A stretch of DNA of 64,000 bases, taken from positions 1 to 64,000 of the forward strand of contig CABYPW010000013.1 of the NCBI GenBank assembly GCA_902520885.1. Reading direction: 5' to 3'. Below are positions 26,909-43,201 of this stretch, piece by piece (within the stretch, counting starts at the first letter, position 1; the number at the start of each line of letters is the position of its first letter). This stretch comes from an uncultured SAR116 cluster alpha proteobacterium. GTDB lineage: Bacteria; Pseudomonadota; Alphaproteobacteria; Puniceispirillales; Puniceispirillaceae. The notes under the pieces are model-generated. The model was not told the DNA's origin. It was given only the letters and a program-made list of their open reading frames with translations, and did no database searches. The translations under genes were made by a program, and so were the position numbers.

Positions 26909-27002
26909 TTTCCCCTCCTAAAAACAAAATAAGTTTTTATGATTAATTTTATATTTTTGATTACGGTATCACTAATTTTGTTTGAAAAGGTAGAAATTTT
27001 TT

Positions 27003-28006: not shown

Positions 28007-28882
28007 CTATACTCCCATAGGAGTTGTAAGAGAAGTTGTAAGAATACTAGTCAACAATAAAATGATCAAGGCAATCATAATTTCAACTTGAATTGAGTTT
28101 TTAAGTCTCGCAGTTCCCTTATCATAGTCTATTCTCAGGTGAGGGACTAATCTGAATTTATTTAAAGCACCCAAAAATAATATGGTCGACACAGAAAATA
28201 ATTTGACCATTAAAAAAATTCCGTAACTCGTTGATATTAAGGCATCAATCCCGCCTACCAATATATATGAAAAAATAAGTCCAGTTACTAATAAGCTGCT
28301 AATATAAAAGATTGCATAATCGCCAAACTTTTCAGAAATCACACTTAAATTTTTTGAGTTTTTATTCATACACATAAATCGAAGTGGTAGAAATGAACCT
28401 AACCAAAATGAAATACAAAATATATGTATTAAGATTAGGGTCTGTGTCGAAAGTCCCTTTAAAGTTGAGTGACCAACTATAATAAAAGACCAAAGAATTA
28501 AAATAATACCTAGAAATTTAGTTAAGCTTGAAAAAGTACCGTTGATGAAGATGGAGATGATTATAACGAAAAAGCCTACAAACAATAAAATGGCAGATTT
28601 TCCTGATAAAGTCTCAAAAGCTAACATTAACAAGGACAAATCAGTTGTACTGTACAGGTCACCGCCCAAATTTCCAGCCACTGACAAGAAAACAACTAGA
28701 CTGGTAAATAAACCAAATACAGACATTTTTTTTATAAGAGCCCTACAATAGTTATAAAGTTCTTTGTCAAAAAAATTATTGAAATGAAATTGAAAAAGAA
28801 CAGTGCCTATAGTCGTTAGAACGGTTATATAGACTAACGTTCTTAAAACTGGATTTATGATTGTCCAAATATCAAAAAACAT
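28007..28882 (-). CDS. copD: CopD-family copper transport membrane protein (locus 1)
   Basis: A 291-aa polytopic protein with about eight hydrophobic segments and the CopD pattern, including SVAGNLGGDL, HSTLKGLSTQTLILIHIFCISFWLGSF and KLFSVSTILFLGALNKFR near the C terminus. Membrane histidines and methionines could bind copper. It follows copC by 1 nt. It is clearly paralogous to the CopD at 40127 but diverged along its length. Confidence 0.85.
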   Translation of the reverse strand: MFFDIWTIINPVLRTLVYITVLTTIGTVLFQFHFNNFFDKELYNYCRALIKKMSVFGLFTSLVVFLSVAGNLGGDLYSTTDLSLLMLAFETLSGKSAILLFVGFFVIIISIFINGTFSSLTKFLGIILILWSFIIVGHSTLKGLSTQTLILIHIFCISFWLGSFLPLRFMCMNKNSKNLSVISEKFGDYAIFYISSLLVTGLIFSYILVGGIDALISTSYGIFLMVKLFSVSTILFLGALNKFRLVPHLRIDYDKGTARLKNSIQVEIMIALIILLLTSILTTSLTTPMGV

Positions 28883-28883
28883 A

Positions 28884-29228
28884 TCATTTTACTTCAAAAT
28901 CAGACTTACCTTTTATGATGTGTCCGTCCGTGCTTAATGCACGCCATTCAAACCGATATATCCCTGCATCCAATTTAGGCATTGGTATGGAATAATTATT
29001 AGAATTATTTTTCACAAAACTTGAATCCAATTTAATTTTTTCTTTAATATCAACTCTTATCAAATCAATTTTAACTAATTTAACTTCAGATTTGAATTTC
29101 ATCTCTATTTGAGGAGGAACCTCATTATAGGTAACATTATCTTTGGGTAAAATTTCAGTTAATTGAGAATGAGCAAAGGCTGCTGAATTGATAAAAATCA
29201 GCAAAAATATAATGATTATTTGTTTCAA
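28884..29228 (-). CDS. copC: CopC-family periplasmic copper-binding protein (locus 1)
   Basis: A 114-aa exported protein. The signal peptide ends in AAFA, leaving His as the first mature residue (HSQL), as in CopC proteins where this His is part of the Cu(II) site. The C-terminal DGHIIKGKSDFEV provides the Asp and His of the site. CopC binds periplasmic copper and is thought to pass it to CopD. The pair is 7 kb from the larger copper operon. Confidence 0.88.
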   Translation of the reverse strand: MKQIIIIFLLIFINSAAFAHSQLTEILPKDNVTYNEVPPQIEMKFKSEVKLVKIDLIRVDIKEKIKLDSSFVKNNSNNYSIPMPKLDAGIYRFEWRALSTDGHIIKGKSDFEVK

Positions 29229-29560
29229 TTTAATATCCTTAATACTTAATAATTCGTCTAAATATGCTTTATTAAAAAGTTTTTTACAGTTAACTGGATG
29301 AAATTTTCTATCACTCCAGTGTTTTCAAAAAATGAAAAAGTCATCTTATGAATAGCGTCATTTCTATCAATGCTAATAATTTAATGTTTAATACATCCTG
29401 TAATGGGAGGGTTGAGACAAAAATGAAGATGTTTTACTTCATACAAACATTAATCAAAATATCTAACTCAGGGTAAATGCTTTGTAGTGTATTTTGAATT
29501 TTTTTCAAGTTAAAAAATTTGAACCCTAAATTTCATTATGTTTTTTGATCGTCTAAATTT
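29229..29560. other. Intergenic region upstream of copC locus 1
   Basis: 332 bp of AT-rich sequence with no supportable gene. Unlike the copper operon at 36.2 kb, there is no CueR-type dyad upstream of copC locus 1, so this copCD pair may be regulated differently. Confidence 0.45.
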
Positions 29561-30451
29561 TCATTTTTTTTTACTTTCAACTTTATTTCGTCTCAAAATA
29601 ATATAAATACCTGATAATACTACAATTAGACTACCGCACAAAACTAGATTATTTGGTTCTTCACCTAGAAATATTATTCCAAAAAACAAAGCGAAGAGTA
29701 CACGCACGTATCTAAAAGGAGTCACGAAGGATACATCCCCATTGCGCATTGCTATAGTCAGACATTGATAGGCTAATATGCCTGCTAAACCGTTGGCTAA
29801 TATAATCCACCAGTCTTCAACTGAAATAGTTACCCAAATTGATTTTGATGGGAAAATAAATAGGTTGAAAAGTGTGATTAATATCCCTGATATAAAAACC
29901 ATCAAAAAGCCAAAACTACCTAGCTGAAAATTGGACATATTCACTGGGCTCAATCGAGTGGCTAAGTCCCTTCCAGCAAAACCAATCATGCCTACCACTG
30001 CGAGAATAGAGAATATACTAAAGCCTTCGGTTCCAGGCTGTATTATAAGTAATACACCAAAAAAACCAAAAATGATTGCGGCCCACCTTCGCCAGCCTAC
30101 TTTTTCATTTAAAAAAATTACGGCTCCTAAAACAACTACAAGTGGTGTGGCTTGCAATATAGCAGAGGCATTTGTTATGGGCATCAATGCTATCGCTAAT
30201 GCATAAAATACTCGTCCACCAATTTCAAATAATGAACGAACTAAAAGAATAGGCTTGAAAGCCTCTTTATAAACCACTTTTTGTTTTGAAATGAAAGAAC
30301 ATCCTAAAAAGAAAATAAATCCAAGAAGGCCGCAAATAATCAGTATTTCCCCCAATGGAGCAACCTTTGTAGCTTTTTTGAGAAAAAAATCCTCCACAGT
30401 GAAAGCAAGCATTGCAAGTGTCATGAAGACACTACCTTTAAAGTTATTCAA
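29561..30451 (-). CDS. EamA/DMT family transporter
   Basis: A 296-aa protein with ten hydrophobic segments and two EamA repeats. Repeat 1 ends with TPLVVVLGAVIFLNEKVGWR and repeat 2 with FRYVRVLFALFFGIIFLGEE. The tail is basic. Third of four EamA genes in this part of the window; substrate unknown. Confidence 0.87.
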   Translation of the reverse strand: MNNFKGSVFMTLAMLAFTVEDFFLKKATKVAPLGEILIICGLLGFIFFLGCSFISKQKVVYKEAFKPILLVRSLFEIGGRVFYALAIALMPITNASAILQATPLVVVLGAVIFLNEKVGWRRWAAIIFGFFGVLLIIQPGTEGFSIFSILAVVGMIGFAGRDLATRLSPVNMSNFQLGSFGFLMVFISGILITLFNLFIFPSKSIWVTISVEDWWIILANGLAGILAYQCLTIAMRNGDVSFVTPFRYVRVLFALFFGIIFLGEEPNNLVLCGSLIVVLSGIYIILRRNKVESKKK

Positions 30452-30546
30452 TTTTTTCTCATTAGGTGATTTTTAATTATTATTAACAGTTTAAATTTAA
30501 TTAAAAGATTGATTTGGAGTAGATAAATTTATAAAATTTAGAGTGT

Positions 30547-31488
30547 CTATTGTTGCTTTACTCGATTATCATTCTTTGCAGCTGTTCCTAAGGTCATAAG
30601 GAAAACACCACTAATCACGAAAATTATAGCAAACATATGATAAAACTCAAAATTTTCATCTAATATCAAAACTGCTAATAATGCAGTAAATAGTGCCCGC
30701 ATATAATTTGATATGCTTGCCTTATTAGCACCTATTTTCCTTATAGAAAAGCTAATCATGCCAACAGCAATTGTGGTTACAGCAACTCCAACCCATATAA
30801 TTGAAAAAATATTTAAGGGTGTGATTGTGACTGGTGCAAAATAAATGGTCTCTAGAATGTAAAAGGGTAAGGTTATAAGGCTCCCAGTACAAAGAACTAT
30901 AATTAAAAGCTGGGATACCGGAATTTCCCTTGGTACCTTGCGAATAAGCACGTTATATAAGGCCCCAAAAATTACTGCGGCTAGCATCACTAAATCACCG
31001 ATATTAAATTGAAGGCCAGCGAGTGTTGATAGCTCCCCGTTTGTTATGATGGAAAGCACACCTACGCCGGCGATTAAAATACCAATACTTTGTTTCCAGT
31101 TAATAAATTCATTAAATAATAACCATGATAATAGTACCGTTAATGCAGGTTGAGAAGCTGAGACGACACCTCCATTTATTGCCGTGGTATAAAGATATGA
31201 AACATATATGAGGCCATTACCCAATGGTACAAATAAGGCACCCATCAGTAAAAATAATCTCCAATGTTTAAGAATAAATTCACGGTTTTTCAGTAAACCG
31301 TAAACAGTAAACGGTAGCAGGAATATTGCTCCTGTTACCATGCGCCAGAATACGAATCCCATAGGCGGGATTGCTCCATCTAAGTATCGTGCCAGCACGT
31401 GATTTGACGCTATTATTAATGCACCAGAGACAATCATTAAATATGGAAATGAATTTGCTATTTTTGTAATTGATGTAACCTTATTCAT
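30547..31488 (-). CDS. EamA/DMT family transporter
   Basis: A 313-aa protein with about ten transmembrane segments in the EamA arrangement: SQPALTVLLSWLLFNEFINW in the first half and NYMRALFTALLAVLILDENF in the second. It is divergent in sequence from the neighbouring EamA gene 95 nt away. Substrate unknown. Confidence 0.87.
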   Translation of the reverse strand: MNKVTSITKIANSFPYLMIVSGALIIASNHVLARYLDGAIPPMGFVFWRMVTGAIFLLPFTVYGLLKNREFILKHWRLFLLMGALFVPLGNGLIYVSYLYTTAINGGVVSASQPALTVLLSWLLFNEFINWKQSIGILIAGVGVLSIITNGELSTLAGLQFNIGDLVMLAAVIFGALYNVLIRKVPREIPVSQLLIIVLCTGSLITLPFYILETIYFAPVTITPLNIFSIIWVGVAVTTIAVGMISFSIRKIGANKASISNYMRALFTALLAVLILDENFEFYHMFAIIFVISGVFLMTLGTAAKNDNRVKQQ

Positions 31489-31657
31489 AAAAAAATGGTA
31501 ATTATTTAAATTTTTATTATATCCTCAGAAACGGCTAATCAATCATCAAAAGAGTTTTTAGTAAAAGTGAGTCAGTGAATATGTTTAAATATGATTTCAA
31601 CCAAATAAGATAATGTTTCACGTAATCAAAATTCTGCTTTATCTTAAGAAATAATTA

Positions 31658-32680
31658 TCACCTAGCAAATTGAGGATATTTTTTAAAAATTTCATTTGCA
31701 ACATCATCAGTTGGAGATGCTCCTATTTGTTTGATTGCATTAGCGGCAAGCATGCTTCCTAGCTCTAAAGACACATCCAAATTTGAGGTGATAAGTTGAC
31801 CAAAAATATAGCCAGCAGCATAGAAATCACCGGCCCCAGTTGTATCCACAATATCAGATGTATTTAGAGCTTCGATATTTTTTGTTTCATTCTTAGAAAA
31901 TGCAATGGCACCATTCGCTCCATCCGTTACTGAGCCAGCTTCCACTATGTTTTTTAGTTGTTCGATTGCATAATCGAATGAGCCACCAAACATCAACATT
32001 AGCTCATCTTTATTGCATATCACAATATCAGCATATTTTTTTATAAAATTTGATAGTTTGTTTCTATGTCTGTCTACGCACCAGCTATCAGAAAGTGATA
32101 TTGCTACTTTTGTTCCAAATTTTTTTGCAGAATTTCCAATTTTTTCCCAGCATTTTGGACCCTCTGGAGCGTCATAAAGATAACCTTCCACATATATTAT
32201 ATCAGCAGATTGAATTAGAAACTCAGGTATGTCGTTTGGTCGTAAATTAATAGATGCACCCAAGTGAGTATTCATAGTTCTCTCTTTATCAGGGGTTACA
32301 AATATATATGAGCGTGCAGTTGGATATTCTAGGTCATTTATTAAATGGGTTTTTACAAGCTGTTTTTTTAGATTATTTCGATAATTTACACCATACTCGT
32401 CGCTACCAACTCTTCCAATGAAGTTTGATGAACAATTAAATTTTGACAAGCACGCAGCAGTGTTGGCAGCAGATCCGCCTGCGACTATTGTGGCATCATT
32501 TATTAATTTATCTATTTCTTCTGAACGATTATGATCGATAAGGTTCATTGCATTTTTGATCATTCCGTTATTTGATATAAATTGTTCAGTTGATGATGAT
32601 ACTACGTCTGTTATGGCGTTTCCAATACACAAAATGTTTGGGTAAGTATTAGTCAATTTTTTGCCTTTTTGTAGCTTCAC
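31658..32680 (-). CDS. PfkB-family kinase, adenosine kinase-like
   Basis: A 340-aa ribokinase-fold kinase. The N-terminal ILCIGNAITDVV, the substrate-binding AGGSAANTAACLSKF (about residue 67), FIGRVGSDEYG and the C-terminal catalytic motif DTTGAGDFYAAGYIFG (about 281-296, with the base Asp in GAGD) are all clear. Layout resembles bacterial adenosine kinase or guanosine kinase-like PfkB proteins; the sugar or nucleoside used cannot be settled by eye. Confidence 0.85.
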   Translation of the reverse strand: MKLQKGKKLTNTYPNILCIGNAITDVVSSSTEQFISNNGMIKNAMNLIDHNRSEEIDKLINDATIVAGGSAANTAACLSKFNCSSNFIGRVGSDEYGVNYRNNLKKQLVKTHLINDLEYPTARSYIFVTPDKERTMNTHLGASINLRPNDIPEFLIQSADIIYVEGYLYDAPEGPKCWEKIGNSAKKFGTKVAISLSDSWCVDRHRNKLSNFIKKYADIVICNKDELMLMFGGSFDYAIEQLKNIVEAGSVTDGANGAIAFSKNETKNIEALNTSDIVDTTGAGDFYAAGYIFGQLITSNLDVSLELGSMLAANAIKQIGASPTDDVANEIFKKYPQFAR

Positions 32681-32866
32681 CGTAAATTATTTTTTCTCTA
32701 TCAGGTGGCCTGAAGCTATTTTAAAAATTAGCACGCTTGGCAGATTTATCTGAAAAAATAGAAAATCTAGCTTACTAATTCCATCACATTTTTGTCTTGG
32801 AGTTTATTGCCACAACTTTTGTTTATAGTAAATTGCTTATTTTATTTTTTGAGGGGATAGGAGGAT

Positions 32867-32937
32867 GAGGTGGGCTTATCTGCAACCGCTTGGTTCAATA
32901 TGTTTTCTGTAAGTAAGGAGCAGAACTCCCCCACCTC
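32867..32937. ncRNA. Candidate structured RNA or long hairpin of unknown type
   Basis: GAGGTGGG (32867-32874) pairs perfectly with CCCACCTC (32930-32937). Inside, TCTGC (32879-32883) pairs with GCAGA (32920-32924), and AACC-GCTT-GGTT (32884-32895) makes a small hairpin. G+C content is far above the flanks in this 467-bp gene-free gap (32681-33147). The strand is not decided; it lies 190 nt upstream of the PfkB gene and 210 nt after the cytochrome c gene, both minus. No T-run follows, so it is not a simple terminator. Confidence 0.45.
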
Positions 32938-33147
32938 CAATTTATATTTGCAAAAACTATGCCATTTTTTTACGTTAGAAAGATGTTTATGCCGAGGCAC
33001 ATCAATTTTTAATCATTTTTTATAAATTTAAAAACAGTTAAGATATTTTAATATAAGTAAAATTGAATTTTTGCTGTTTTTCACGAGTTTTTAAAAAGTA
33101 TAAGGATATCTTTTAACTTAATAAATGAAGTATAAATTAACAAAAAA

Positions 33148-33618
33148 TTAGCGTGAATTTAGTGTATTATGCTGTTGCTTAATTTGCTCTGGCCATGTGC
33201 TTTTTATGTATGATAGAACCGCAATTATCTCATCATCCGTCAGCACGTCTTTGTAGGCAGGCATATTATTTGGGTATCTTTTACCAATCATTTCTTCAAT
33301 CCCATATTTCGTCATTAGAAAGAGATATTGATCTGAATGGTGCCAAGTATGGCCAGACTCATCATGAGGAGGTGCAGGCAAGTATCCATTTGAGTCTCTT
33401 TGACGCCAATTGATTTGCCCCTCCAAATTAGCGCCATGACATGAGGCACAATTTTTGGCATATACAGACCCTCCTAGTTTAATAGTTAGAGCGTCGTTTG
33501 GTTTTAGCGATACATTTGTCACGATTTCACTAGTAGAAAATTGTGTATAATATATTCCCATTCCTAAGAACAAAAAAATTACCACTATGAATGAGATATG
33601 CTTGATGCCTTTGAACAT
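33148..33618 (-). CDS. Membrane-anchored class I cytochrome c
   Basis: A 156-aa protein with one N-terminal membrane segment (about residues 8-25) and a mono-haem domain: CASCH at about residue 57 and a likely Met ligand in NNMPAY (about 119). The region between them is His- and Trp-rich (HDESGHTWHHSDQ). It follows the DUF4396 gene by 19 nt and is probably expressed with it under the CueR-type palindrome. An electron-carrier role in copper stress is inferred from context. Confidence 0.88.
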   Translation of the reverse strand: MFKGIKHISFIVVIFLFLGMGIYYTQFSTSEIVTNVSLKPNDALTIKLGGSVYAKNCASCHGANLEGQINWRQRDSNGYLPAPPHDESGHTWHHSDQYLFLMTKYGIEEMIGKRYPNNMPAYKDVLTDDEIIAVLSYIKSTWPEQIKQQHNTLNSR

Positions 33619-33637
33619 TTTTTTATCACCAATTCCT

Positions 33638-34084
33638 CTAATGGCATCCCTTTCCCAGAGCTTTTAAACGCCAATAATTATAGGGTAGAGGAGCAATAAA
33701 TCCTGCAATTAGCATTATTGGTATAACCCACCATTTTAAAATAGCGCCGCCAGTGAGCATAACATCGGTTATGTTCATTGCAGCCTCCATTGCAATCATC
33801 GAAATGAGTGACATTCCTATCGCTGTTTTAAAAGCTACTTTCAATGCCATTTGTCTAATTAAAATTATGGTTTCAAGCATTATTGAGGTCATAATTCCGT
33901 TTAAAATTGCCAGACACATAATTGCCCACACTGGCCATGGTATGCCAGTAAATTGAAAGAATGCTATGGTACCTAAATCTCCGATGGAACATCCAATCAA
34001 ACACCATGAAGTGTTATAAGACGAAGTTTTCCATGTATGTTTGCATTTCCAATTTATCGCAACGTTTACAGGTACAGATATCAT
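33638..34084 (-). CDS. DUF4396 membrane protein
   Basis: A 148-aa protein with four hydrophobic segments and the DUF4396 pattern: WKCKHTWKTSSYN, then WCLIGCSIGDLGTI, MLETIILIRQM, AMNITDVM and a basic end (YNYWRLKALGKGCH). Cys, His and Met residues are frequent in and near the membrane. The frame opens at a TTG at 34096, but ATG 34084 has GAGG 8 nt upstream and leaves room for a leader after the predicted promoter. Function unestablished; copper context is inferred. Confidence 0.8.
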   Translation of the reverse strand: MISVPVNVAINWKCKHTWKTSSYNTSWCLIGCSIGDLGTIAFFQFTGIPWPVWAIMCLAILNGIMTSIMLETIILIRQMALKVAFKTAIGMSLISMIAMEAAMNITDVMLTGGAILKWWVIPIMLIAGFIAPLPYNYWRLKALGKGCH

Positions 34085-34113
34085 TTTTGACCTCAAAGAA
34101 AAAGAAAGCTATA

Positions 34114-34143: not shown

Positions 34144-34533
34144 ATGAATATAGGACAAGTAGCGAAATTATCTGGGTTAACGGTAAAGACAATAAGATAT
34201 TACAGCGATATTGGTTTAATTAAGCCGGAAGTGAATGAAAGAAATGGTTACAGAGACTTTTCAAGAGCTGACCTTGCTAAAATCCAATTCATAGGTAGAG
34301 CAAGAAAATTTGATTTTAGCATAGATGAATGTAGAGAGTTGTTAGCATTATATGAAAACTCGGAAAGGTCTAGTAGAGAGGTAAAGTTTCTGACATTAGA
34401 GAAGATTGCAGAAATTGATTTAAAGTTAAAAGAGCTTGAAGTGTTAAAAGACCAATTGAATACATTAGCTTCGGCCTGTCAGGGGGACGAAAGACCAAAC
34501 TGTCCTATTTTAGACGCATTAACCAGCGAATAA
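34144..34533 (+). CDS. cueR: CueR-like copper-responsive MerR regulator
   Basis: A 129-aa MerR-family activator. The winged helix begins MNIGQVAKLSGLTVKTIRYY, followed by a long dimerisation helix (about 80-110) and the metal loop CQGDERPNCPI with C112 and C120, a CX7C spacing at the same numbers as E. coli CueR. Ser77, typical of sensors for monovalent metals, is also present. The frame is open upstream to 33961, but the ATG at 34144 gives the family N terminus. It is divergent from DUF4396-cytochrome c. Confidence 0.93.
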   Translation: MNIGQVAKLSGLTVKTIRYYSDIGLIKPEVNERNGYRDFSRADLAKIQFIGRARKFDFSIDECRELLALYENSERSSREVKFLTLEKIAEIDLKLKELEVLKDQLNTLASACQGDERPNCPILDALTSE

Positions 34534-34588
34534 AAATTTTGTTCTGCTAAAAAATTAAAAAATAAGCGTTTATAAATAAATTAGCCTA

Positions 34589-34687
34589 ATGATAAAACTT
34601 AGTCATTCGGCACGAAAATTAACCAAAATATGGCATATTCTTTCCATTGTTGTGACGTTAGTTGGAACCTTCTTTTATATTCTTTAA
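34589..34687 (+). CDS. Possible 32-aa membrane peptide
   Basis: The frame starts MIKLSHSARKLTK, a basic N terminus, followed by a single hydrophobic stretch (about residues 15-32) that ends the peptide. It lies 55 nt after cueR. No clear ribosome site precedes the ATG. No family recognised. Confidence 0.3.
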   Translation: MIKLSHSARKLTKIWHILSIVVTLVGTFFYIL

Positions 34688-34691
34688 TAAA

Positions 34692-34734
34692 AAGTAAGGG
34701 TTAGTATATCGAAAAACAAACCCTTTCCTTACTT
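34692..34734. repeat. Inverted repeat downstream of cueR
   Basis: AAGTAAGG (34692-34699) pairs with CCTTACTT (34727-34734), and GGGTT with AACCC lie nested inside. It could act as a terminator or structured leader of the small frame at 34764. No T-tract follows it on the plus strand. Confidence 0.5.
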
Positions 34735-34763
34735 ATTAAGTCACTTATCGGGAGGAAAAATAG

Positions 34764-34853
34764 GTGACTAAACTTACTAAAAAAACTTTGTGCCACTTCA
34801 TACTGCTGTTTCTTCATGGAAGTGATGTATTTATTGCAGCAGCAGATTATTGA
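34764..34853 (+). CDS. Possible 29-aa signal-peptide-like frame
   Basis: A GTG start with GGGAGG 8 nt upstream opens a frame beginning MTKLTKKTLCHFILLFLHG. It has a basic n-region, a hydrophobic core and an AAAD end like a signal peptidase site, then stops. It may be the remains of an exported protein truncated after its signal sequence, or a very small peptide. The good ribosome site is the main support. Confidence 0.3.
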   Translation: MTKLTKKTLCHFILLFLHGSDVFIAAADY

Positions 34854-34951
34854 AGGTTTTAAAATTTTCACTTAGGCACTAACAGAGTTGACTGATTGAG
34901 GAAAAGCGGCAAGATTTAAGTAAATGAGTATCCAATAAATAGAAGTTTAGG

Positions 34952-35389
34952 ATGTCACGAATGAAGGCATTGCATCTAATATGCAGACTTAATCCAGAAA
35001 CAAACAGAGGCTTTGGTGTTGATGCCTATCACAAAAAAGACCCACCTAGTTGGGTAAGAAATGATGCCAAAAATATATTCACTTCAGGATTTTGGGTTTG
35101 CGGAACTTCAGAAGCGACAGAGCTTGTTGGAGGTAGATTACATCTTCATGAAACCAAAACAGAAAAATCTTGGTTAAGTGGCAAGGTAATTGACGTTCTA
35201 CTTATTAATATGGACTTCCCGGGTAGATGGTTTGTTGATGAACGAGATGAGTCTAATGATTGGCAACCTGCAAAAATTAGAGACAGGATTGTCTTTAAGG
35301 TAGAGGTTACTGCATCTACAAGGGTGCCAACTGCTTGGAGAGGGGCAAAGCACAAAATGGCTTTCTCCGGTGGTATTATAGATAATTAA
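34952..35389 (+). CDS. Unrecognised 145-aa protein (full-length copy)
   Basis: No family recognised. The product is soluble, Trp-rich and ends in AWRGAKHKMAFSGG. Its 3' half (35170-35381) is repeated nearly exactly at 41461-41672, where the 5' half is missing. Most differences between the two copies are at third codon positions, which suggests that the frame was under selection before the copies parted. It sits left of the tRNA-Thr fragment, so it probably belongs to an integrated element. Confidence 0.6.
   Translation: MSRMKALHLICRLNPETNRGFGVDAYHKKDPPSWVRNDAKNIFTSGFWVCGTSEATELVGGRLHLHETKTEKSWLSGKVIDVLLINMDFPGRWFVDERDESNDWQPAKIRDRIVFKVEVTASTRVPTAWRGAKHKMAFSGGIIDN
35170..35381 (+). repeat. 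Direct repeat, copy A (coding half)
   Basis: About 210 bp aligns without gaps to 41461-41672 (constant offset 6291), with roughly a dozen differences. Beyond it, both copies continue into a diverged non-coding extension that includes the shared word TACATATACGTATGG. Confidence 0.9.
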
Positions 35390-35619
35390 ACATAGATTTA
35401 AACCCGCACCTAACCTATTCACATGCTGTGTAAGGTTTACAAGCTAAACAGTTTATGTGTACAGGAGGCTGAGTACATATACGTATGGCATAGAGGTGGT
35501 TCCTGCATGAAGGGTATGATAATTGAAGTGGGTAGACCATTGGGTAGATCAAATTGATACACTTGAAATGTTAGCTTCTACAAGAGATTCCGAGCATAGC
35601 CACAATTATTGTGTAAGGT
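35390..35619 (+). repeat. Element-end sequence, copy A
   Basis: Gene-free sequence next to the tRNA-Thr fragment. CTGAGTACATATACGTATGG is shared with 41813-41832. A stretch starting GGGTAGATCAAATTG at 35542 and running to the fragment is similar, with scattered substitutions, to 42915-43013 beside the intact tRNA. Shared flanks at both tRNA copies point to repeated insertion of related elements. Confidence 0.65.
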
Positions 35620-35666
35620 TTGTGCTGGCAGAAAGACTCGAACTCCCAAACGCCCGATTACAAATC
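35620..35666 (-). repeat. Partial tRNA-Thr 3' half (att-like direct repeat)
   Basis: Forty-seven bp match the anticodon loop, anticodon 3' stem, variable loop, T arm, acceptor 3' strand and CCA of the tRNA-Thr gene at 43014, with three mismatches. The 5' half of the tRNA is absent. A 3' tRNA fragment in the same orientation as an intact copy 7.4 kb away is the standard footprint of integrase-mediated insertion. Confidence 0.88.
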
Positions 35667-35835
35667 AGAGTTTCGCATGATTGAACAAGAATTAATATAG
35701 ATTTTTGAAACTCAATATATATCGTAAAAACAGTACATTATACTTTTTTCGTATTATAATTGTGTTTATGTAGAACAATGTAATTAAATGTAAAACAAAA
35801 CAAATATGACCTCTAAAGTGACGCCTAATTGAAAA

Positions 35836-36055
35836 ATGCCTACAGCACTGATAAGTCTGTTTTACAACTTAGACTGTCAAAACAAAACAGACATTTACCA
35901 ACCCAAAATCACCACTGATAATTAGAGTTAGAAAAACTGGCACTTATTATTATTTTAGAAAAAAACAGGGTAAAATCAGGATTGGTAAAGTAGGAGTCGT
36001 TGCGTTAAAAGATGCTCGAATAAAAGCTCACGAAATTGAGTTTATAATCCACTAA
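35836..36055 (+). pseudogene. Broken tyrosine recombinase (integrase) N-terminus
   Basis: An ATG at 35836 starts MPTALISLF and the frame stops at TAG 35925. In another frame, the sequence continues LIIRVRKTGTYYYFRKKQGK, then IRIGKVGVVALKDARIKAHEIE, before a stop at 36053. IRV-x3-G-x-YYYFR and the ALKDARIKA motif are typical of the N-terminal arm-binding domain of P4-like integrases (DUF4102 type). The catalytic C-terminal domain is missing. It begins 170 bp inside the left tRNA fragment, where an island integrase is expected. Confidence 0.75.
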
Positions 36056-36181
36056 GGGAAAAGCCCAAGAAACACTTCTCTTGATCGTGATCTGACCGTT
36101 AAATCGATTTATTTTGAATTTGTAAATTCTGATAAATTTACTGAGATGAAAAGTAGAAATAATAAAAAAGTAAAAATATGT

Positions 36182-36212
36182 TTGACCTTCCCCTTAGGGG
36201 AAAGTTTATATA
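36182..36212 (+). promoter_or_regulatory. CueR-type copper promoter
   Basis: TTGACC (36182-36187), a 19-bp spacer and TATATA (36207-36212). The spacer carries the dyad ACCTTCCCC-TTA-GGGGAAAGT, one mismatch from perfect. The -35 and left arm match the well-known E. coli copA promoter (TTGACCTTCCCCTT). Transcription would start about 65 nt upstream of the copC-cusF ATG. Confidence 0.9.
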
Positions 36213-36283
36213 AAATAAAATTATTTTTTTTTAAAAATCTTGATTTTTATAAATTTTTTCAAAGAAATTGGAGTGAATATCTA

Positions 36284-36913
36284 ATGAGGATACTCGGAAT
36301 TTTTGTATTAAGTTTATTCTTAAACTTTTCAACTGCTACAGCTCACTCTCCAGTAGGTTTTGTGGTACCAAAAGATGGGTCTATAATCAAAAAGGCCCCA
36401 GAAAAAATGGAAATCGTTTTTACTGCACCAGCAAAACTGATTAAAGTTGAGTTTTCCAAAGTCACATCAAACCAAGAAAAGTTATTACTTAGTGGCCTGC
36501 TTGGGAACGAAGCTCTTGCCCCTATAAAATTAGATAAAGAGCATCTTATGAAGGAATCAAGACGACACATTATAAGTCTCCCTAAATTAGATGATGGTAT
36601 ATATAAAACAGCATGGCGCGCTCTTAGTGAAGATGGTCACGCCATTAAGGGAGAGTTTATATTTGAGGTGTCACCCAAAGGCTCAGACTTATCAGTCGAT
36701 GATGTAAAATTGTTGATTGGTGAAGGTCAAGTTAAACGCGTAAGAGGGACAAAAATAACAATAAAACATGGACCTTTAGGAGAGTTAATGCCAGCAATGA
36801 CAATGGAATTTAATGTCTCAGACAAGAAACTAATTTCAAACTTTAAACGGGGAGACGAAGTTAAGATTCAAGTGAATGAAGAGTTACAACTTCTTAAAAT
36901 TGAGTCAAAATAG
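36284..36913 (+). CDS. CopC-CusF fusion, periplasmic copper-binding protein
   Basis: From ATG 36284 (GGAG about 10 nt upstream) the product is 209 aa. A signal peptide ends TATA, leaving HSPVGF as mature N terminus. The CopC domain follows (to about residue 125) with SEDGHAIKGEF. Residues ~140-209 match CusF: VKRVRGTKITIKHGPLGE, then MPAMTMEF and FKRGDEVKIQV. The CusF copper ligands His, Met and Met are kept, but the Trp that caps the metal in E. coli CusF is replaced by Met. First gene of the copper operon. Confidence 0.88.
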   Translation: MRILGIFVLSLFLNFSTATAHSPVGFVVPKDGSIIKKAPEKMEIVFTAPAKLIKVEFSKVTSNQEKLLLSGLLGNEALAPIKLDKEHLMKESRRHIISLPKLDDGIYKTAWRALSEDGHAIKGEFIFEVSPKGSDLSVDDVKLLIGEGQVKRVRGTKITIKHGPLGELMPAMTMEFNVSDKKLISNFKRGDEVKIQVNEELQLLKIESK

Positions 36914-36927
36914 GGGTCTAACAAAAG

Positions 36928-37248
36928 ATGAATATAAAAAAAGATATATCTACAAAAACTAATTCTAAAAAAACTATTTTTATGTCAGCTTACTACTTTA
37001 ACTTTCATAATTTCTTATACACTTTTAAAGCTTTATTTTTCTTGATGATTGCCGGAACTATTTCGTTTTCAGTAGCCGCTAAAAGTGAAGATAATTCAAT
37101 AAATAAAAACATATATGAATCTATTTTTGACGCTTATGAAAAATGGGAGTGGGAGGAAACATTAGACTGGATCATTTCAAATAAAATAGTTGATGAGATT
37201 GGTGGTTGGCAATATTACTCTCGTGAAAAAAGCGAGGAAAAAAAATAG
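36928..37248 (+). CDS. Small exported protein with IGGW motif
   Basis: A 106-aa product. A hydrophobic segment (about residues 34-50) ending VAAK resembles a signal peptide or anchor; an internal ATG at codon 19 may be the true start. The rest is acidic and Trp-rich: YEKWEWEETLDWI, then EIGGWQYYSRE at the C terminus. Similar small proteins with an IGGW-xx-Y end are found next to TolC-like genes in copper loci, from memory. It ends 7 nt before tolC. Confidence 0.65.
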   Translation: MNIKKDISTKTNSKKTIFMSAYYFNFHNFLYTFKALFFLMIAGTISFSVAAKSEDNSINKNIYESIFDAYEKWEWEETLDWIISNKIVDEIGGWQYYSREKSEEKK

Positions 37249-37255
37249 GTTAGCG

Positions 37256-38656
37256 ATGAAATTGAGTATTTTTTACATTGGCTTAATATTTTTAATATCT
37301 GGTTGTACGTCTTATAAATTTGAAGATAGTTTAAATGACATTAACAGCAACAAAGAGATAGTTATTGCCGGTAAAATAACCGCAGCTGTTAATCAAGAAC
37401 AACAAGATGAATTATTTAACAATTCAAAAGCGCTGCTAAATTCAGAGGTTGGTGAAAAGGAAGCTGTAGAATTAATGCTTTCCAAAAGTCCTAGTTTTCA
37501 ATCCCTTTTATTTAAATATCGCGAGAGTGGATCAGCTGCTGCTCAAAATGGGAGGATTGCTAATCCAGCGTTTTCGTTTGAACGAATGGTTAAGGGTTCT
37601 GAAATAGAATATGGAAGGTTTTTAAGTTTTGGGCTCCTTGATTTGCTTTTTCTTCCAACCAAACAAAAATCCTCAAAACTTGCTGTTGATTTGAATGATG
37701 TAAATTTTGCCTCTGAAATTTATGGGGTAATAAATGACGTAAGAATGTCTTGGTTTGAAGCAGTTGCTTCAGAACAACAACTAACTCTTTATGATAATGC
37801 TTTTATCGCTCTTTCTGCAAATGCTGAACTTGCTAAACGAATGAAAAAAACTGGTAATATGACAACTAGTGATAGAGTTCGTGAACAATTGATCTATTCG
37901 GAAGCTACTATAGCTCTTGCCAAAGCGAAAATGAGAAAAATTTCTAGTAGGGAAAACTTAATACGTAAAATAGGTCTAACAGAGAGTGAAGCTAAAAATT
38001 TTACCATACCTAAAAAATTACCAGAATTACCAAAAGCACCGATATCAATAGAGAAAATTGCTAATAAAATTAGTGACAGATTTGATGTTAAAATGGCTCG
38101 TATCGAATATGAGTTGTTATTGGAACAGGTAGGAGTTGAAAAAATTAATTCTTACACAGATATCGAATTCGGATATAGAAATGATAGAATAAAAGATGAT
38201 GGAGTTATCTCAAACAAAAAAGGCTATGAACTTGAAATTAAAATTCCAATTTTTGATTGGGGTAATCTTCAAAGAGATAAAATTCAATCAGAACTAATTG
38301 CGAAGCAAAAAAGTTATGAGAATATCGTACTTACTGCGGCCTCTGAATTTCGTGAAGCCTACCAAATGTATAGGACAGCCTTCGATATCGCGAAACATTA
38401 TTATGATCAAGTTATTCCAATGCACGAAATACTCTTAGAAGAAGCAACTTATAATTATAATGGAATGATAATCGGAATATTTGAGTTGATGCAAAGTGGG
38501 CTTGAGAAATCAACAGCTGAAATAAAAGCTATAGACGCATTACAAAACTTATTTATTGCAGAACTAAACTTAAATAGTGTTGCTGTAGGAAGAAAACTAG
38601 GAGCAAAATCAAGGACCACAGAGGTTGCTTCTAACAAAGCCAAAAAAGGTCATTAG
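37256..38656 (+). CDS. TolC-family outer membrane lipoprotein
   Basis: From ATG 37256 the product is 466 aa with a lipoprotein signal ending LISGC, so it is predicted to be acylated at Cys. The rest has the two long-helix repeats of TolC/CusC proteins, with AVELMLSKSPSFQ, NPAFSFERM and IKIPIFDWGNLQRDK, the last being the family IPIFDxG strand motif. Such proteins form outer membrane channels for tripartite pumps, but no inner membrane pump or adaptor gene is present here. Confidence 0.88.
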   Translation: MKLSIFYIGLIFLISGCTSYKFEDSLNDINSNKEIVIAGKITAAVNQEQQDELFNNSKALLNSEVGEKEAVELMLSKSPSFQSLLFKYRESGSAAAQNGRIANPAFSFERMVKGSEIEYGRFLSFGLLDLLFLPTKQKSSKLAVDLNDVNFASEIYGVINDVRMSWFEAVASEQQLTLYDNAFIALSANAELAKRMKKTGNMTTSDRVREQLIYSEATIALAKAKMRKISSRENLIRKIGLTESEAKNFTIPKKLPELPKAPISIEKIANKISDRFDVKMARIEYELLLEQVGVEKINSYTDIEFGYRNDRIKDDGVISNKKGYELEIKIPIFDWGNLQRDKIQSELIAKQKSYENIVLTAASEFREAYQMYRTAFDIAKHYYDQVIPMHEILLEEATYNYNGMIIGIFELMQSGLEKSTAEIKAIDALQNLFIAELNLNSVAVGRKLGAKSRTTEVASNKAKKGH

Positions 38657-38688
38657 TGAGAAATAATAGTGAAAAAATGGAGACTTAA

Positions 38689-40095
38689 GTGAATACAAGA
38701 CGCGAATTTATAAGGTTATCTGCATTAGCAGGCACAGCAATAGCAGGTGCATCGGTTGCTAACTCGTCACTCGCAGGGTTACCCGAGCCGATGATACAAA
38801 CATCTGCAGACACAATCAGTCCAAATAAGTCGAAAGAAACATCCGAGTATAATCCCGTTGTTACACTTAATGGATGGACATTGCCTTACAGAATGAACGG
38901 TAACTTTAAAGAGTTTCATTTAGTTGCTGAACCTATTGTTCGTGAACTAGCACCTGGAATGAATGCTAATCTTTGGGGATATAATGGTCAAAGTCCAGGC
39001 CCTACAATTGAAGTTGTTGAGGGTGATAAAGTTAGAATTTTCCTTACAAATAAATTACCAGAACATACCAGTATTCATTGGCACGGCCAAAGGCTACCAA
39101 ATGGAATGGATGGAGTAGCAGGGCTAAACCAATTAGCTGTAAGTCCTGGTAAAACCTTCGTATATGAATTTGAAGCAAAACGACCAGGAACCTTTATGTA
39201 TCATCCTCATGCTGACGAAATGACTCAAATGGCAATGGGTATGATGGGATTTTGGGTTACTCATCCAAAAAAAGAACATCCCTGGATTAGCAAAGTAGAT
39301 AGAGACTATTGTATTTTACTAAATGCATTTGATATTGTCCCTGGCTCAGAGACACCAAAAATAATGACTATGCTTGATTTTAATTTATGGGCTTGGAACA
39401 GCAGAATTTTTCCTGGAATTTCACCCCTTATAGCAAGAAAAAATGAACGTGTTAGAGTAAGAATTGGAAACTTAACAATGACAAACCATCCTATACATGT
39501 CCATGGAATAGAGTTTGAGGTAACAGGGACAGATGGTGGACCAACTCGACCAGAGAGTCGATGGAAAGAGGTAACTAGTGATATAGCGGTTGGCCAAATG
39601 AGGCAAATAGAGTTTATTGCTGAGGAAGAGGGAGACTGGGCAATTCACTGTCACAAAAGCCATCATTCAATGAATGCTATGGGCCATAATGTGCCTACAA
39701 TGATTGGTGTTGACCATAGAGGTGTGTCAGAAAAGATTAAGAAGTTAGTGCCAGATTATATGGTTATGGGTGAACGAGGAATGGCTGATATGACTGAAAT
39801 GACCATGCCATTACCAGATAATACAATCCCAATGATGACGGGAGATGGTCCTTATGGCTCTGTTGAAATGGGAGGTATGTTTAGTATACTTAAGGTTAGA
39901 GCTGATCAAGCCCCAGGTGATTACACTGATCCCGGCTGGTTTAAACATCCTGTGGGTAAACAGGCGTATGAGTATAAGGGAGAAATGCCAAAAATGTCAA
40001 AAATAAATGGAACAGGCAATTCGCTTATGTCTTCAAAATCTGAAATAAAAACAAGTCAATTTACAGCTGTAAAATCAAATTATAGGAAAAGTTAG
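38689..40095 (+). CDS. Multicopper oxidase, Tat-exported
   Basis: A 468-aa product from a GTG start with GGAG 6 nt upstream. The N terminus TRREFIRLSALAG is a Tat signal. All four copper motifs are present: HWHG (130-133), HPH (172-174), HPIHVH (267-272) and HCHKSHHSMNAM (320-331), which fits the type 1 pattern HCHx3Hx4M. A Met-rich C-terminal region (about 357-395) resembles the Cu(I)-binding inserts of CopA/CueO. It probably oxidises Cu(I) to the less toxic Cu(II) in the periplasm. Confidence 0.93.
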   Translation: MNTRREFIRLSALAGTAIAGASVANSSLAGLPEPMIQTSADTISPNKSKETSEYNPVVTLNGWTLPYRMNGNFKEFHLVAEPIVRELAPGMNANLWGYNGQSPGPTIEVVEGDKVRIFLTNKLPEHTSIHWHGQRLPNGMDGVAGLNQLAVSPGKTFVYEFEAKRPGTFMYHPHADEMTQMAMGMMGFWVTHPKKEHPWISKVDRDYCILLNAFDIVPGSETPKIMTMLDFNLWAWNSRIFPGISPLIARKNERVRVRIGNLTMTNHPIHVHGIEFEVTGTDGGPTRPESRWKEVTSDIAVGQMRQIEFIAEEEGDWAIHCHKSHHSMNAMGHNVPTMIGVDHRGVSEKIKKLVPDYMVMGERGMADMTEMTMPLPDNTIPMMTGDGPYGSVEMGGMFSILKVRADQAPGDYTDPGWFKHPVGKQAYEYKGEMPKMSKINGTGNSLMSSKSEIKTSQFTAVKSNYRKS

Positions 40096-40126
40096 TAAAT
40101 ACATCTAAGGGTTTTAAAGGGTATAG

Positions 40127-40999
40127 TTGATGGATGTATGGATCTTTTTCACTCCTGTTTTGAAAGTTCTACTTTATTTAGTTGGATTAGCGGTAGTTGG
40201 AACAAAATTATTTAGTCTTCATTTTAGTAAGTATCAATCAATAGACAACTTGGAATACTGTAACTTGTTATTTCAAAAGAGTTGTTTGTATGGCCTTATA
40301 ATATCGGTTGGGATGATATTTTCCATAGCAGGTAATTTAGGTGGAGAGTTTTTGAGTATTTTAGACCCAATGATTTTAGAGCTTGCTTTAACGTCAAAAG
40401 CAGGGTACGCAACGATTTTTGCATTTATAGGTTTTATACTTACTTTTATTAGCACAAGACATGAAGTAGTTTCTCTAAAGGCCCTTGGGTGGCTAGGTAT
40501 TGGTTTTGTTCTTTTATCATTTATTTCTACAGGGCATTCCCAAAAATCTGGTATCTTGGCACAGATTTTACTATTATTTCATCTCATTTGTGTGGCGTTT
40601 TGGCTTGGATCTTTTATCCCATTACACAATATGTGCTCATCTGCTAAAACAAGCAACCTTCATGTAATAGCCCACAGATTTGGTATTCTAGCTGTTTTTT
40701 ATTTAGTTGTTTTAATAATATCTGGAAGTTTATTTGCATATATCTTGATGAATGAGGTTAGTTTATTGTTCAGCACTTCTTATGGCAACGCATTTTTAAT
40801 TAAAATGTCTTTAGTTTCTTTATTACTTTCATTTGGAGCGCTAAATAAATTTAAAAATGTTCCATTAATAAAAAACGAGCCTACAGTTGGCTCGATTCAA
40901 CTAAAAAAATCCATTCGTATTGAAATGTTCATTGCATTACTCATTTTATCCTTAACTAGTATTCTTACCACTTCGATGACTTTACCTATGGGCGGTTAA
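40127..40999 (+). CDS. copD: CopD-family copper transport membrane protein (locus 2)
   Basis: A 290-aa polytopic protein with about eight hydrophobic segments. It shares with locus 1 SIAGNLGGEF, a GHSQKSGILAQILLLFH stretch, FWLGSFIPLHNMC, FGALNKFKNVP and the end SILTTSMTLPMGG. It is the last gene of the copper operon and is followed by a perfect inverted repeat. With the CopC domain encoded at the start of the operon it makes a CopC-CopD pair. Confidence 0.87.
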   Translation: MMDVWIFFTPVLKVLLYLVGLAVVGTKLFSLHFSKYQSIDNLEYCNLLFQKSCLYGLIISVGMIFSIAGNLGGEFLSILDPMILELALTSKAGYATIFAFIGFILTFISTRHEVVSLKALGWLGIGFVLLSFISTGHSQKSGILAQILLLFHLICVAFWLGSFIPLHNMCSSAKTSNLHVIAHRFGILAVFYLVVLIISGSLFAYILMNEVSLLFSTSYGNAFLIKMSLVSLLLSFGALNKFKNVPLIKNEPTVGSIQLKKSIRIEMFIALLILSLTSILTTSMTLPMGG

Positions 41000-41026
41000 A
41001 TTCGTTTATTTAATTCAGACCTTGCT

Positions 41027-41063
41027 TATAGATGAAGTTTTGAGTTTTTTACCTTCATCTATA
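41027..41063 (+). terminator. Hairpin after the copper operon
   Basis: TATAGATGAAG (41027-41037) pairs perfectly with CTTCATCTATA (41053-41063), 27 nt after the copD stop. The T-tract after the stem is poor, so it may stop transcription only weakly or protect the mRNA 3' end. Confidence 0.6.
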
Positions 41064-41143
41064 TAATATTTGCTCTAATAATTTCTTTCTAATATTTACC
41101 CAGTTAGTTTTTATAAGAAAATTATGGGCAATATCATAGATAA

Positions 41144-41341
41144 ACTGACCTGTGTCGTAACGTCCAATTTGGAATCCAATCGGCAGATTTGTTTTTTGAA
41201 AAAACACATGGAATTGATATTGATGTATTGCCTGAAACGTTAAATGGTGATCGAGCTTGTCTCATATTGTATTTATTAATTTGTAAGATATCTCCAAGTT
41301 TGAAAGGAAGATCAAAATTTGCAGGTATGATTAAAAAATAA
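41144..41341 (+). pseudogene. Start-less coding relic
   Basis: A 65-codon frame runs from just after a TAA to TAA 41339-41341 with no start codon at its beginning. The translation looks protein-like: QFGIQSADLFFEKTHGIDID, then PETLNGDRACLILYLLICK and GRSKFAGMIKK. The upstream part of the gene is missing. The family was not recognised. Confidence 0.35.
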
Positions 41342-41460
41342 TATTTTTATCTTCAGGTTCTCAACTATCATATAAATAGTAAAAAATCACTTTCTTTGGA
41401 GGGTAATTAGGGCGGCATTCAGAAATTAAAAAATTAAAAACAACATTTACAATCAGTGAT

Positions 41461-41698
41461 TTGGTTAAGTGGTAAGGTAATTGACGTTCTACTTATTAAT
41501 ATGGACTTTCCGGGTAGATGGTTTGTTGATAAACGAGATGAGTCTAATGATTGGCAACCTGCAAAAATTAGAGACAGGATTGTCTTTTGGGTAGAGGTTA
41601 CCGCATCTACAAGGGTGCCAACTGCCTGGAGAGGGGCAAAGCACAAAATGGCTTTCTCCGGTGGTGTTACAGACGATGAAACTTTTCCGGCCTATTAA
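41461..41698 (+). pseudogene. Truncated copy of the 34952 gene (direct repeat, copy B)
   Basis: The sequence corresponds to codons ~74-144 of the full-length gene at 34952, with a changed end (DDETFPAY). The first half and start codon are missing; homology begins abruptly at TTGGTTAAGTGG. Replacements include E to K and K to W, while most other changes are silent. Confidence 0.85.
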
Positions 41699-42047
41699 GA
41701 AACGCCTATTAATAATTCTTAAAACGTCATTAATGATTTCTTTTAAATTCACACATAAGCTATTCACATCCGGTGTAAGGTTAACACCCTGTAAACTTAA
41801 TGAGTGTAGAAAGCTGAGTACATATACGTATGGTGTGGGGGTTGAGTCCTGCACGGGGTGGGACAGTTGAAGTGGGTAGACCAAATTGATACACTCGACG
41901 AGGATGATAATTAGTTGCATACTGTGATGGACTGAAATTTCCATTCTTTTTAAGGTGCATTCTTGCCCCTTTTACCGGCACTAAAATTGTATAATAGTAG
42001 TCGAACCTTAAATCGTAAAAACATCTTGAACAAGGAGAGACACCAAA
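41699..42047 (+). repeat. Gene-free stretch with element-end sequence, copy B
   Basis: It holds TATTCACATCCGGTGTAAGG, CTGAGTACATATACGTATGG (41813-41832) and GGGTAGACCAAATTG (41874-41888), in the same order as in copy A. Homology ends soon after the last word. The remainder up to 42030 shows no gene. Confidence 0.6.
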
Positions 42048-42449
42048 ATGAAAATGGTCAGTACATTTGAAATTAAGAAAAACTTTGGTAGATGGCTTCA
42101 ACTTGTAGATGTCGAGTTGAAATCAAAGCTATAAGAGTACGGTATGAAAGTGCATTTCGCTTGTGCAAATGAAGATGAGACTCCTGTGTATGATATGTTT
42201 GAAATCAAAAACCCAAGTCGTGTTGAAGCTTTTCTGATGGACGAAGAGGTCATTAAACTACGCACTAAAACAGGAGTTATTCTCAATAGCTCAGATGAAT
42301 TGGCAACAGTGGTAAATTCAAAGTTTGGTAAATTTAACAGCAACCGTGGTTGCTTGGCTTGCCTATGCAATGGGAGTAAAAACTCCACTGAGGGAAGGGA
42401 GGATACCAAACCCTCAGCAGAGTCGTTTAAGACCCCACTAGTGGGATAA
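42048..42449 (+). pseudogene. Small protein gene with in-frame stop
   Basis: ATG 42048 has AAGGAGAG 9 nt upstream and starts MKMVSTFEIKKNFGRWLQLV. A TAA at 42132-42134 interrupts the frame after 28 codons; the same frame then continues EYGMKVHFACANEDETPVYD, then FEIKNPSRVEAFLMDEEVIK. The two parts read as one ~90-residue alpha-beta protein resembling small dimeric ferredoxin-like-fold proteins. Restart at ATG 42144 is possible. The last ~50 codons look non-coding and run into a hairpin. Confidence 0.6.
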
Positions 42450-42502
42450 TCGTTTATTTAATAAGTAAAATAAACGTCAATGATAAAATCTAGTGGGGTC
42501 TT
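42429..42502. repeat. Compound inverted repeat
   Basis: AAGACCCCACTAG (42429-42441) pairs perfectly with CTAGTGGGGTCTT (42490-42502). Nested inside are CGTTTATTT and AAATAAACG arms. CCCACTAGTGGG (42434-42445) is itself a 12-bp palindrome, so two alternative foldings exist. It may be a terminator or a recombination-related structure. Confidence 0.75.
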
Positions 42503-42529
42503 TGATAGCTATCAGGGACAATTTCATGC

Positions 42530-42610
42530 CTAATGACTTTGTCCTAATTTAGAAGTATTCCAAATTACTATTAAAAACAATGCGACAAACAGCCACGTTA
42601 TTCTTAGCAT
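42530..42610 (-). CDS. Possible 26-aa membrane peptide
   Basis: A frame starting MLRITWLFVALFLIVIW has an AGGAG ribosome site 5 nt upstream and one hydrophobic helix, followed by a short polar tail. It is too short to identify. The ribosome site and hydrophobic pattern are the only support. Confidence 0.33.
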   Translation of the reverse strand: MLRITWLFVALFLIVIWNTSKLGQSH

Positions 42611-43013
42611 TTTACTCCTACCAAAAGTCACCTGTGTTCAATTTAAGTGACAAAAAACTGAGAAAGAACAATCCCAAATAAGACTAACCAGCGCCTCTTA
42701 AGACCCTCTTTGGTAGTCCACATATCTCCACCACCCTTTCAGTGACTCTGTATGAGTCAGCAATAGGCATTCTAAACCCCTTCTTTTGATAACATCAGAC
42801 ACCCCAGCCAATTAATCTTTAGTTAGACTTTAGAGACGACAACAAAACTCAATAACAACAACAATAAGTGGGTCTTCAACGGTATTTTTGAAGTCGTGTT
42901 TGTCGTAACCCACTGGGTAGACCAAATTGATATACTTGACGTGTTAGGTTGTACGTGAGATTCTAGGCATAGCTTCAATTACAGCGTGTTAGCACATGAT
43001 GTGATAGGGAGAA
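42611..43013. other. Island right end with element-end copy C
   Basis: Degraded sequence beside the intact tRNA-Thr. Two overlapping minus frames near 42690-42790 have protein-like but broken translations (for example MPIADSYRVTERVVEICGL before a stop). From 42915 (GGGTAGACCAAATTG) to the tRNA it resembles the left flank of the tRNA fragment at 35.6 kb. Confidence 0.5.
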
Positions 43014-43089
43014 TGGTGCTGGCAGAGAGACTCGAACTCCCAACCGCCCGATTACAAATCGGGTGCTCTACCAATTGAGCCATGCCAGC
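43014..43089 (-). tRNA. tRNA-Thr(TGT)
   Basis: A full cloverleaf on the minus strand: acceptor GCTGGCA pairs with TGCCAGC, D arm GCTCAATTGGTAGAGC, anticodon stem CCCGA/TCGGG with TGT anticodon, T loop TTCGAGT, discriminator A and an encoded CCA. Its 3' half is duplicated at 35620-35666, so it served as an integration target. Confidence 0.96.
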
Positions 43090-43201
43090 AATATTCTTAT
43101 TTCAAAACGTTTACGCATAATACTACGTAAACGCAAATAAAAAATAGATATTTTTAGCTGTAATTAATTAAAAAATTACGGGTTAATTTTACATATTCTA
43201 T

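Follow-up and report, generated by a model that had tools for sequence, protein, structure and literature searches.

The DNA analysed here (the window) is a stretch of 64,000 nucleotides, bases 1–64000 of contig C13 in the draft genome (G000; 2.17 Mb in 39 contigs, 95% complete) of an uncultured SAR116-cluster alphaproteobacterium. On the 3′ side of an intact tRNA-Thr gene it holds a copper operon, a copy of the 3′ half of the tRNA and the remains of a tyrosine integrase (Table 1), and we regard this assemblage as a new example of the known tRNA-targeted genomic islands. For comparison we used 10 genomes of the genus, 61 of the family, 136 of the order and 80 loci that carry the multicopper oxidase of the operon.

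ARAGORN and Rfam agree on the intact tRNA-Thr. As a preliminary description made from the letters alone had reported, a 47-bp copy of its 3′ half lies downstream in the same orientation, the arrangement typical of a tRNA-targeted island; it is identical to tRNA positions 30–76, on the same strand, at 44 of 47 bases (43/45 in the BLAST core). At E ≤ 0.001, the tRNA-Thr used as query against the whole draft genome matched only itself and this copy (E = 1.3e-14). Because it is the only other match genome-wide, the copy is not a chance resemblance, and no equally good fragment, named beforehand as evidence against an island, turned up elsewhere in the genome.

The broken integrase N-terminus proposed inside the left copy was also recovered, about 200 bp inside the distal tRNA copy and directed away from it. 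With one TAG and one TAA read through, 35867–36073 aligns to positions 3–78 of 83 of the PF13356 profile at 29.7 bits (cut-off 27), and the open 60-amino acid piece at 35873–36052 matches this family (Arm-DNA-bind_3) with E = 1.5e-5. Four integrases searched by tblastn against 34500–43100 at E ≤ 1 gave a sole match of 11 residues (E = 0.98). Since a stop-broken arm domain is all that remains of an integrase gene inside it, the window island is degenerate rather than complete.

Table 1. Features of the tRNA-Thr locus, in window coordinates.
Feature	Position	Strand	Basis or remark
Cytochrome c and DUF4396 genes, resident	33148–34096	minus	
CueR regulator, resident	34147–34533	plus	TIGR02044; outside the variable interval
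145-aa gene, no assigned family	34952–35389	plus	genus-only, always at the tRNA-Thr locus
Outer flank, resembling inner flank	35525–35619	minus	12-bp-period tandem repeat (10/12), candidate integrase arm site
Partial tRNA-Thr copy (tRNA positions 30–76, anticodon loop to 3′ end)	35620–35666	minus	putative distal attachment-site (att) remnant
Decayed tyrosine-integrase arm domain (PF13356), two stops	35867–36073	plus	profile search
Copper block, promoter to operon 3′ end, judged horizontally acquired	36157–41347	plus	DNA identity, SecY comparison, tree
CueR-type promoter: TTGACC, 19-bp spacer containing operator 36185–36205, TATATA	36182–36212	plus	
CopC–CusF fusion protein	36284–36913	plus	Pfam; NCBIfam match below equivalog cut-off
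106-aa protein	36928–37248	plus	no family match in Pfam, NCBIfam
TolC-like outer-membrane efflux protein	37253–38656	plus	PF02321 (on longer frame from 37190)
Multicopper oxidase	38689–40095	plus	Pfam; PDB relatives; best NCBIfam TIGR01480 copper_res_A, below cut-off
CopD membrane protein	40127–40999	plus	PF05425; NF033808 below cut-off
Partial copy of 145-aa gene (codons ~72–145), inside island	41461–41682	plus	95% DNA identity
~1 kb between 28-bp direct repeats 41873–41900 and 42914–42941	41901–42913		
Inner flank, adjoining intact tRNA-Thr	42914–43013	minus	
tRNA-Thr, anticodon TGT, intact, target gene	43014–43089	minus	ARAGORN, Rfam RF00005

The copper operon and its promoter

The cargo is, as first described, a CueR-type promoter followed by a five-gene copper operon; this rests on family matches and on the 19-bp spacing between the −35 (TTGACC) and −10 (TATATA) elements. 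Cop/pco-type periplasmic copper operons run under CueR. The window block resembles them in its CopC, CopD, multicopper oxidase, CusF domain, TolC-like protein and CueR-type promoter, and differs from them in the fusion of CopC with CusF, in an oxidase, CopC and CopD that fall below the NCBIfam equivalog or subfamily cut-offs, and in having no copper ATPase or CusAB. Copper tolerance is its likely function. The hairpin at the 3′ end of the operon would make a weak terminator (z = −1.54). A second, resident CopC–CopD pair stands 11 kb away (28007–29228), its CopD 43% and its CopC 37% identical to the island copies.

A CueR-family regulator and a 19-bp-spacer promoter with a dyad operator, the marks by which a CueR-regulated operon is predicted, are both present. 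The resident CueR scores 150.9 bits against TIGR02044 (cut-off 147.4) and is conserved in three genomes of the genus (G001, G003 and G004). An operator-like dyad is visible across the operons of loci L082–L088, and in two of these (L086 and L088) a CueR-like gene, a DUF4396 gene and a cytochrome c gene lie directly beside the copper operon. On the strength of the family score, the CueR gene beside the operon in those two loci and the conserved dyad, the resident CueR, 1.6 kb from the imported promoter, is likely to regulate the operon. The operator is the sole match in the window at ≤2 mismatches (itself at 0 mismatches; with 2 allowed, 0.61 matches would be expected by chance), a scan that is no independent test because its pattern was written from the letters of 36185–36205 itself.

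Variation and repeats at the tRNA-Thr site

The island boundary had been placed at 35.62 kb. The interval that varies across the genus is larger, running from the tRNA-Thr to the CueR gene, where the shared backbone restarts (~34539), and measures 8,475 bp in the window genome, 22,879 bp in G009, 2,804 bp in G004, 4,160 bp in G001 and 13,338 bp in G003. Within the genus, G009 carries the same copper island together with the tRNA fragment, so that the operon in place with no trace of a fragment, named beforehand as counter-evidence, was not what we found; it also carries an extra 14.4-kb insert at the same tRNA. The site of this insert is the last 14 bases of the tRNA-Thr, CTCTGCCAGCACCA, found at positions 1248 and 15650 of the G009 locus (L040) and once in the window, which itself is the unoccupied state (attB) for the extra island. 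The insert has an intact integrase open reading frame (ORF), in which Pfam recognises the domains PF13356, Phage_int_M and Phage_integrase; the ORF begins about 155 bp in from the distal core, a layout comparable to that of the window remnant. The two genomes are 99.8% identical (31 mismatches over 15,131 aligned bases) and make a natural unoccupied/occupied pair for a tRNA-Thr island whose integrase gene is intact, so that integration at this tRNA is open to direct test. The G009 island (L040 1262–15649) also encodes a ZrgA family zinc protein, a CehA/McbA-like metallohydrolase (below cut-off) and an AAA_25 protein.

Because the interval varies and G009 carries a second island at the same tRNA, we class the locus as a hotspot with tandem accretion, whose tRNA site has been used recently though the recombinase of the copper island is broken. 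The proposal that the island was fixed by loss of its recombinase is not borne out, given this G009 island and the two other open frames in the window genome that exceed the PF13356 cut-off. Strains without the island had been expected to join the 35.6-kb flank directly to the tRNA. The operon-less genomes of the genus that can be read at a full tRNA-Thr are G001, G003 and G004, and each has other DNA there (the contig of G007 ends within the tRNA; in G002, G005, G006 and G008 no full-length tRNA-Thr was matched). A long integrase-like ORF starts beside the tRNA-Thr in six of the genomes read from other genera of the family, and the two of these ORFs run against Pfam match DUF6538 and Phage_integrase; short distal tRNA copies lie 6.9 kb away in G025 and 6.7 kb away in G037. 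The 145-aa gene occurs in 5 of the 61 family genomes, all of this genus and all at the tRNA-Thr locus.

Comparing the two ends returned the expected match of the tRNA half and also a duplication reaching into the flank, which the preliminary description had not noticed. The outer stretch at 35541–35619 resembles 42914–43013 on the inside, and 35170–35391 is 95% identical to 41461–41682, with 73–79% identity in the adjoining non-coding stretches; the duplication thus extends past the tRNA half, through ~100 bp of flank and part of the neighbouring gene. Because the same flank and gene lie on both sides, one insertion fails to explain the repetition and tandem accretion does. It is these repeated flanks that suggest a tandem nature for the window island, which holds a single tRNA fragment and a single integrase remnant; G009 has both a second att core and a second integrase. 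The first ~40 bp of the inner flank resemble the tRNA-Thr flanks of G012, G028, G015, G029 and G025, and not those of G001, G003 and G004.

The ~1 kb between the 28-bp direct repeats is in part an 86% copy of contig C21 of the same genome. Pieces of it (42144–42449 and 42672–42917) recur on C21, on C13 at 71–73 kb and on C2 near a tRNA-Glu, as an island-associated dispersed sequence. Contig C21 carries another decayed island with integrase fragments (L067 5990–16504), the genes of which match genes of the tRNA-Thr locus in relatives (a caspase-like protein at 93% and a 106-aa protein at 84% in G003, a lyase-like protein at 34% in G004); gene content appears to shuttle between islands.

Tandem repeats of 11–13 bp behind tRNA-Thr ends were considered as integrase arm sites. 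With one mismatch they occur at 8 of 21 tRNA-Thr sites and in 26 of 4,000 random 90-mers, and with two mismatches at 12 of 21 and in 143 of 4,000. We keep them only as a lead, because the 21 sites are interrelated, low-GC (guanine plus cytosine) repeats were filtered out and the intact end in the window is not among the matches. The outer-flank repeats and those of G012 run in opposite directions.

Origin and other settings of the copper block

At the DNA level, 36157–41347 is 89–93% identical to operons at L082–L089 and L162–L169, which belong to another SAR116 family (f4) and to the genome AG-359-I23; the alignments end at or near the promoter (starts at 36157–36182 where the locus extends) and the operon end (41026–41347). 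The named near relatives of the island oxidase are SAR116-cluster alphaproteobacteria, and the oxidase is present in 24 of the 136 order genomes. Its identity to the window protein is 95–97% in 16 of the 17 f4 genomes that carry it and 88% in the remaining one, 84–85% in three same-family genomes (a fourth has a partial match of 74%), and 81% in a single f2 genome. For SecY, compared without G004, G094 and G100 (no SecY match), identities are 79–81% in two same-family genomes, 69–72% in five f4 genomes and 57% in AG-359-I23, the genome of L087. The AG-359-I23 oxidase is 95% identical to that of the window, and its contig is no stray piece of SAR116 DNA because the ThrS encoded on it is 59% identical to that of G000.

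In a tree of 20 rows, the window falls with L082–L089 in a nine-row clade with support of 100/99, within which the order is not resolved. Within the genus the oxidase occurs in 2 of 10 genomes, and in 2 of the 5 with completeness of 90% or more and contamination of 5% or less; several of the others are incomplete. The cargo is thus missing from close relatives and foreign in affinity, as expected of an island, and together the identities, the SecY comparison and the tree indicate that the copper block was acquired horizontally from outside the family. Composition was rejected as a marker of foreignness, the neighbouring chromosome being equally AT-rich. The plasmid collection searched offers no near source, because the best of its 342 records with a relative reaches 75%; viral contigs gave one oxidase locus, at 70% identity.

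The same operon adjoins other tRNAs elsewhere. In AG-359-I23 (L087) it begins about 265 bp beyond a different tRNA-Thr (7160–7235), beside thrS and infC (named by eye), with two same-strand copies: copy A at 19998–20044, which starts, like the window copy, at the anticodon loop and of whose 47 bp 46 match the tRNA to its end without mismatch, and copy B at 20826–20913, downstream of the operon. In TMED93 (L090; oxidase 85% identical) the operon lies between a tRNA-Met and a copy of which the last 53 nt are exact. Of the 80 oxidase loci, 8 have tRNAs and 3 (L087, L090 and L114) have same-strand 3′ copies. The copy of a tRNA-Cys (2745–2818) in L114, at 5380–5397, was rejected as a bracket, as the oxidase at 10001–11341 lies outside it; a tRNA-Arg near the operon in L084 and L085 and a tRNA-Met in L093 were rejected as attachment sites, having no copies. 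A search of the order for a further site of the L087 type gave only a 61-base tRNA match in G047. We consider it rather unlikely that the operon is a non-autonomous rider, running from promoter to terminator and lacking a recombinase, that would repeatedly borrow the integrases of resident elements to enter islands of different tRNAs (this tRNA-Thr, another in AG-359-I23, tRNA-Met in TMED93) across orders of marine Alphaproteobacteria, with ends made of tRNA 3′ halves and ~20–110 bp of flank.

Probable stacked insertions and the alternatives

We favour, at a probability of roughly 0.75, the reading of ~34.54–43.09 kb as a hotspot where tRNA-targeted insertions have accreted in a stack 3′ of the tRNA-Thr. 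Four observations carry it: the tRNA and its fragment, the foreign copper block, the dead integrase domain and, in G009, a recent insertion at this tRNA. In the order of events that we infer, with a PF13356-type integrase as the probable agent, a mobile element carrying the copper operon from outside the family would have recombined into the tRNA gene at its anticodon-loop sub-site through a tyrosine integrase, supplying a new tRNA 3′ half that completed the gene now intact at 43014–43089 and displacing the old half, which became the fragment; the integrase of the element would have broken down later. Flank and neighbouring gene of one kind lie both outside and inside the fragment, which points to a stack of two or more related insertions followed by deletions. 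The imported promoter would now drive the operon, probably under the resident CueR.

Several results weigh against this reading. Neither G001, G003 and G004 nor the family genomes showed the copper insertion site truly empty. The isolated 60-aa integrase piece, at 25.4 bits, falls slightly below the curated Pfam cut-off, the inner flank has no tandem repeat and the outer flank has one only at the looser threshold. The GC content of the copper block (34.0%) is close to that of 22762–33600 (33.5%), with 37.3% for the window. Among the 12 near loci L082–L093, 7 have no tRNA in the stretch examined, 3 have a tRNA with no copy and 2 have bracketing copies. In L084 the operon occupies the position held in G053 by a native CopC–CopD pair (69% and 63% identical to the resident pair of the window), and tRNA islands are therefore not the only setting in which the operon moves or is replaced. 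Finally, homologous recombination might mimic the pattern because the outer flank is itself repeated inside.

That last point underlies the main rival, in which no integrase acted: a circular or linear piece bearing a tRNA 3′ half, flank, gene fragment and operon would have undergone homologous recombination with the tRNA-Thr region already present and left direct repeats on both sides. A repeat longer than an att core would follow naturally, as would the similarly long repeat (tRNA-Met half plus ~110 bp) that brackets the operon in L090; the four test integrases have no match in the L087 or L090 intervals, and at the native copper locus of L084 homologous recombination is plausible. We nevertheless think this origin improbable, given the integrase arm domain directly inside the fragment, the start of the repeats in the window and in L087 copy A at the anticodon loop, a known integrase sub-site, and the site-specific use of a 14-bp core of the same tRNA in G009. 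A single clean insertion, yielding one island bounded at 35.62 and 43.09 kb and immobilised when its integrase died, strikes us as equally doubtful. It accommodates the tRNA, the fragment and the broken integrase within, and the first description is supported so far as it concerns an island bounded by the tRNA-Thr, with copper genes that prove to be horizontally acquired and with that integrase; what is weakened is the one simple event, since flank and gene fragments are duplicated on both sides of the boundary, the shared backbone resumes only at 34.54 kb and the empty join is missing from G001, G003 and G004. A chance resemblance, or a dispersed repeat with a tRNA half included by accident, has in its favour that some of the inner 1 kb recurs at scattered places in the genome, and is scarcely credible when the tRNA half is found nowhere else in it, the orientation and side are correct, and the independently assembled G009 has the same structure.

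Stacked tRNA-targeted insertions have precedents. In the Islander scheme (PMC4383910), the anticodon-loop sub-site is termed A and the T-stem/acceptor end J, and tandem arrays are a described class of tRNA-targeted genomic islands. The window island agrees with the islands described there in its intact tDNA, its 3′ fragment displaced to the correct side and lying on the correct strand, its length above 2 kb and its A sub-site class, and differs in its partly decayed fragment end and in its integrase, which, being a remnant, would lead the Islander integrase filter to reject it. Tycheposons (PMC10872708) are likewise tRNA-bounded elements that carry cargo in marine plankton and come with a tyrosine recombinase; the window island differs from them in having no functional recombinase gene, in its tRNA-Thr target and in its copper cargo. 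The locus offers a readable case of trace-metal gene gain by genome-streamlined ocean bacteria: one copper operon, with protein identity above 95%, is shared between lineages whose core proteins are 57–72% identical, and stands beside a tRNA-Thr in two.

Two further observations concern the neighbourhood. Between 44175 and 45881 the window has a tRNA-Tyr and tuf, then rpsJ; in G001, G003 and G004 a tRNA-Trp comes after this tuf, and G012 and G020 look like the window. Either two tuf copies have recombined, or the assembly was joined across the repeated tuf sequence. To the right of the window, an intact DUF6538-type integrase gene starts 71 bp beyond a tRNA-Leu(GAG) (L054 5106–6431).

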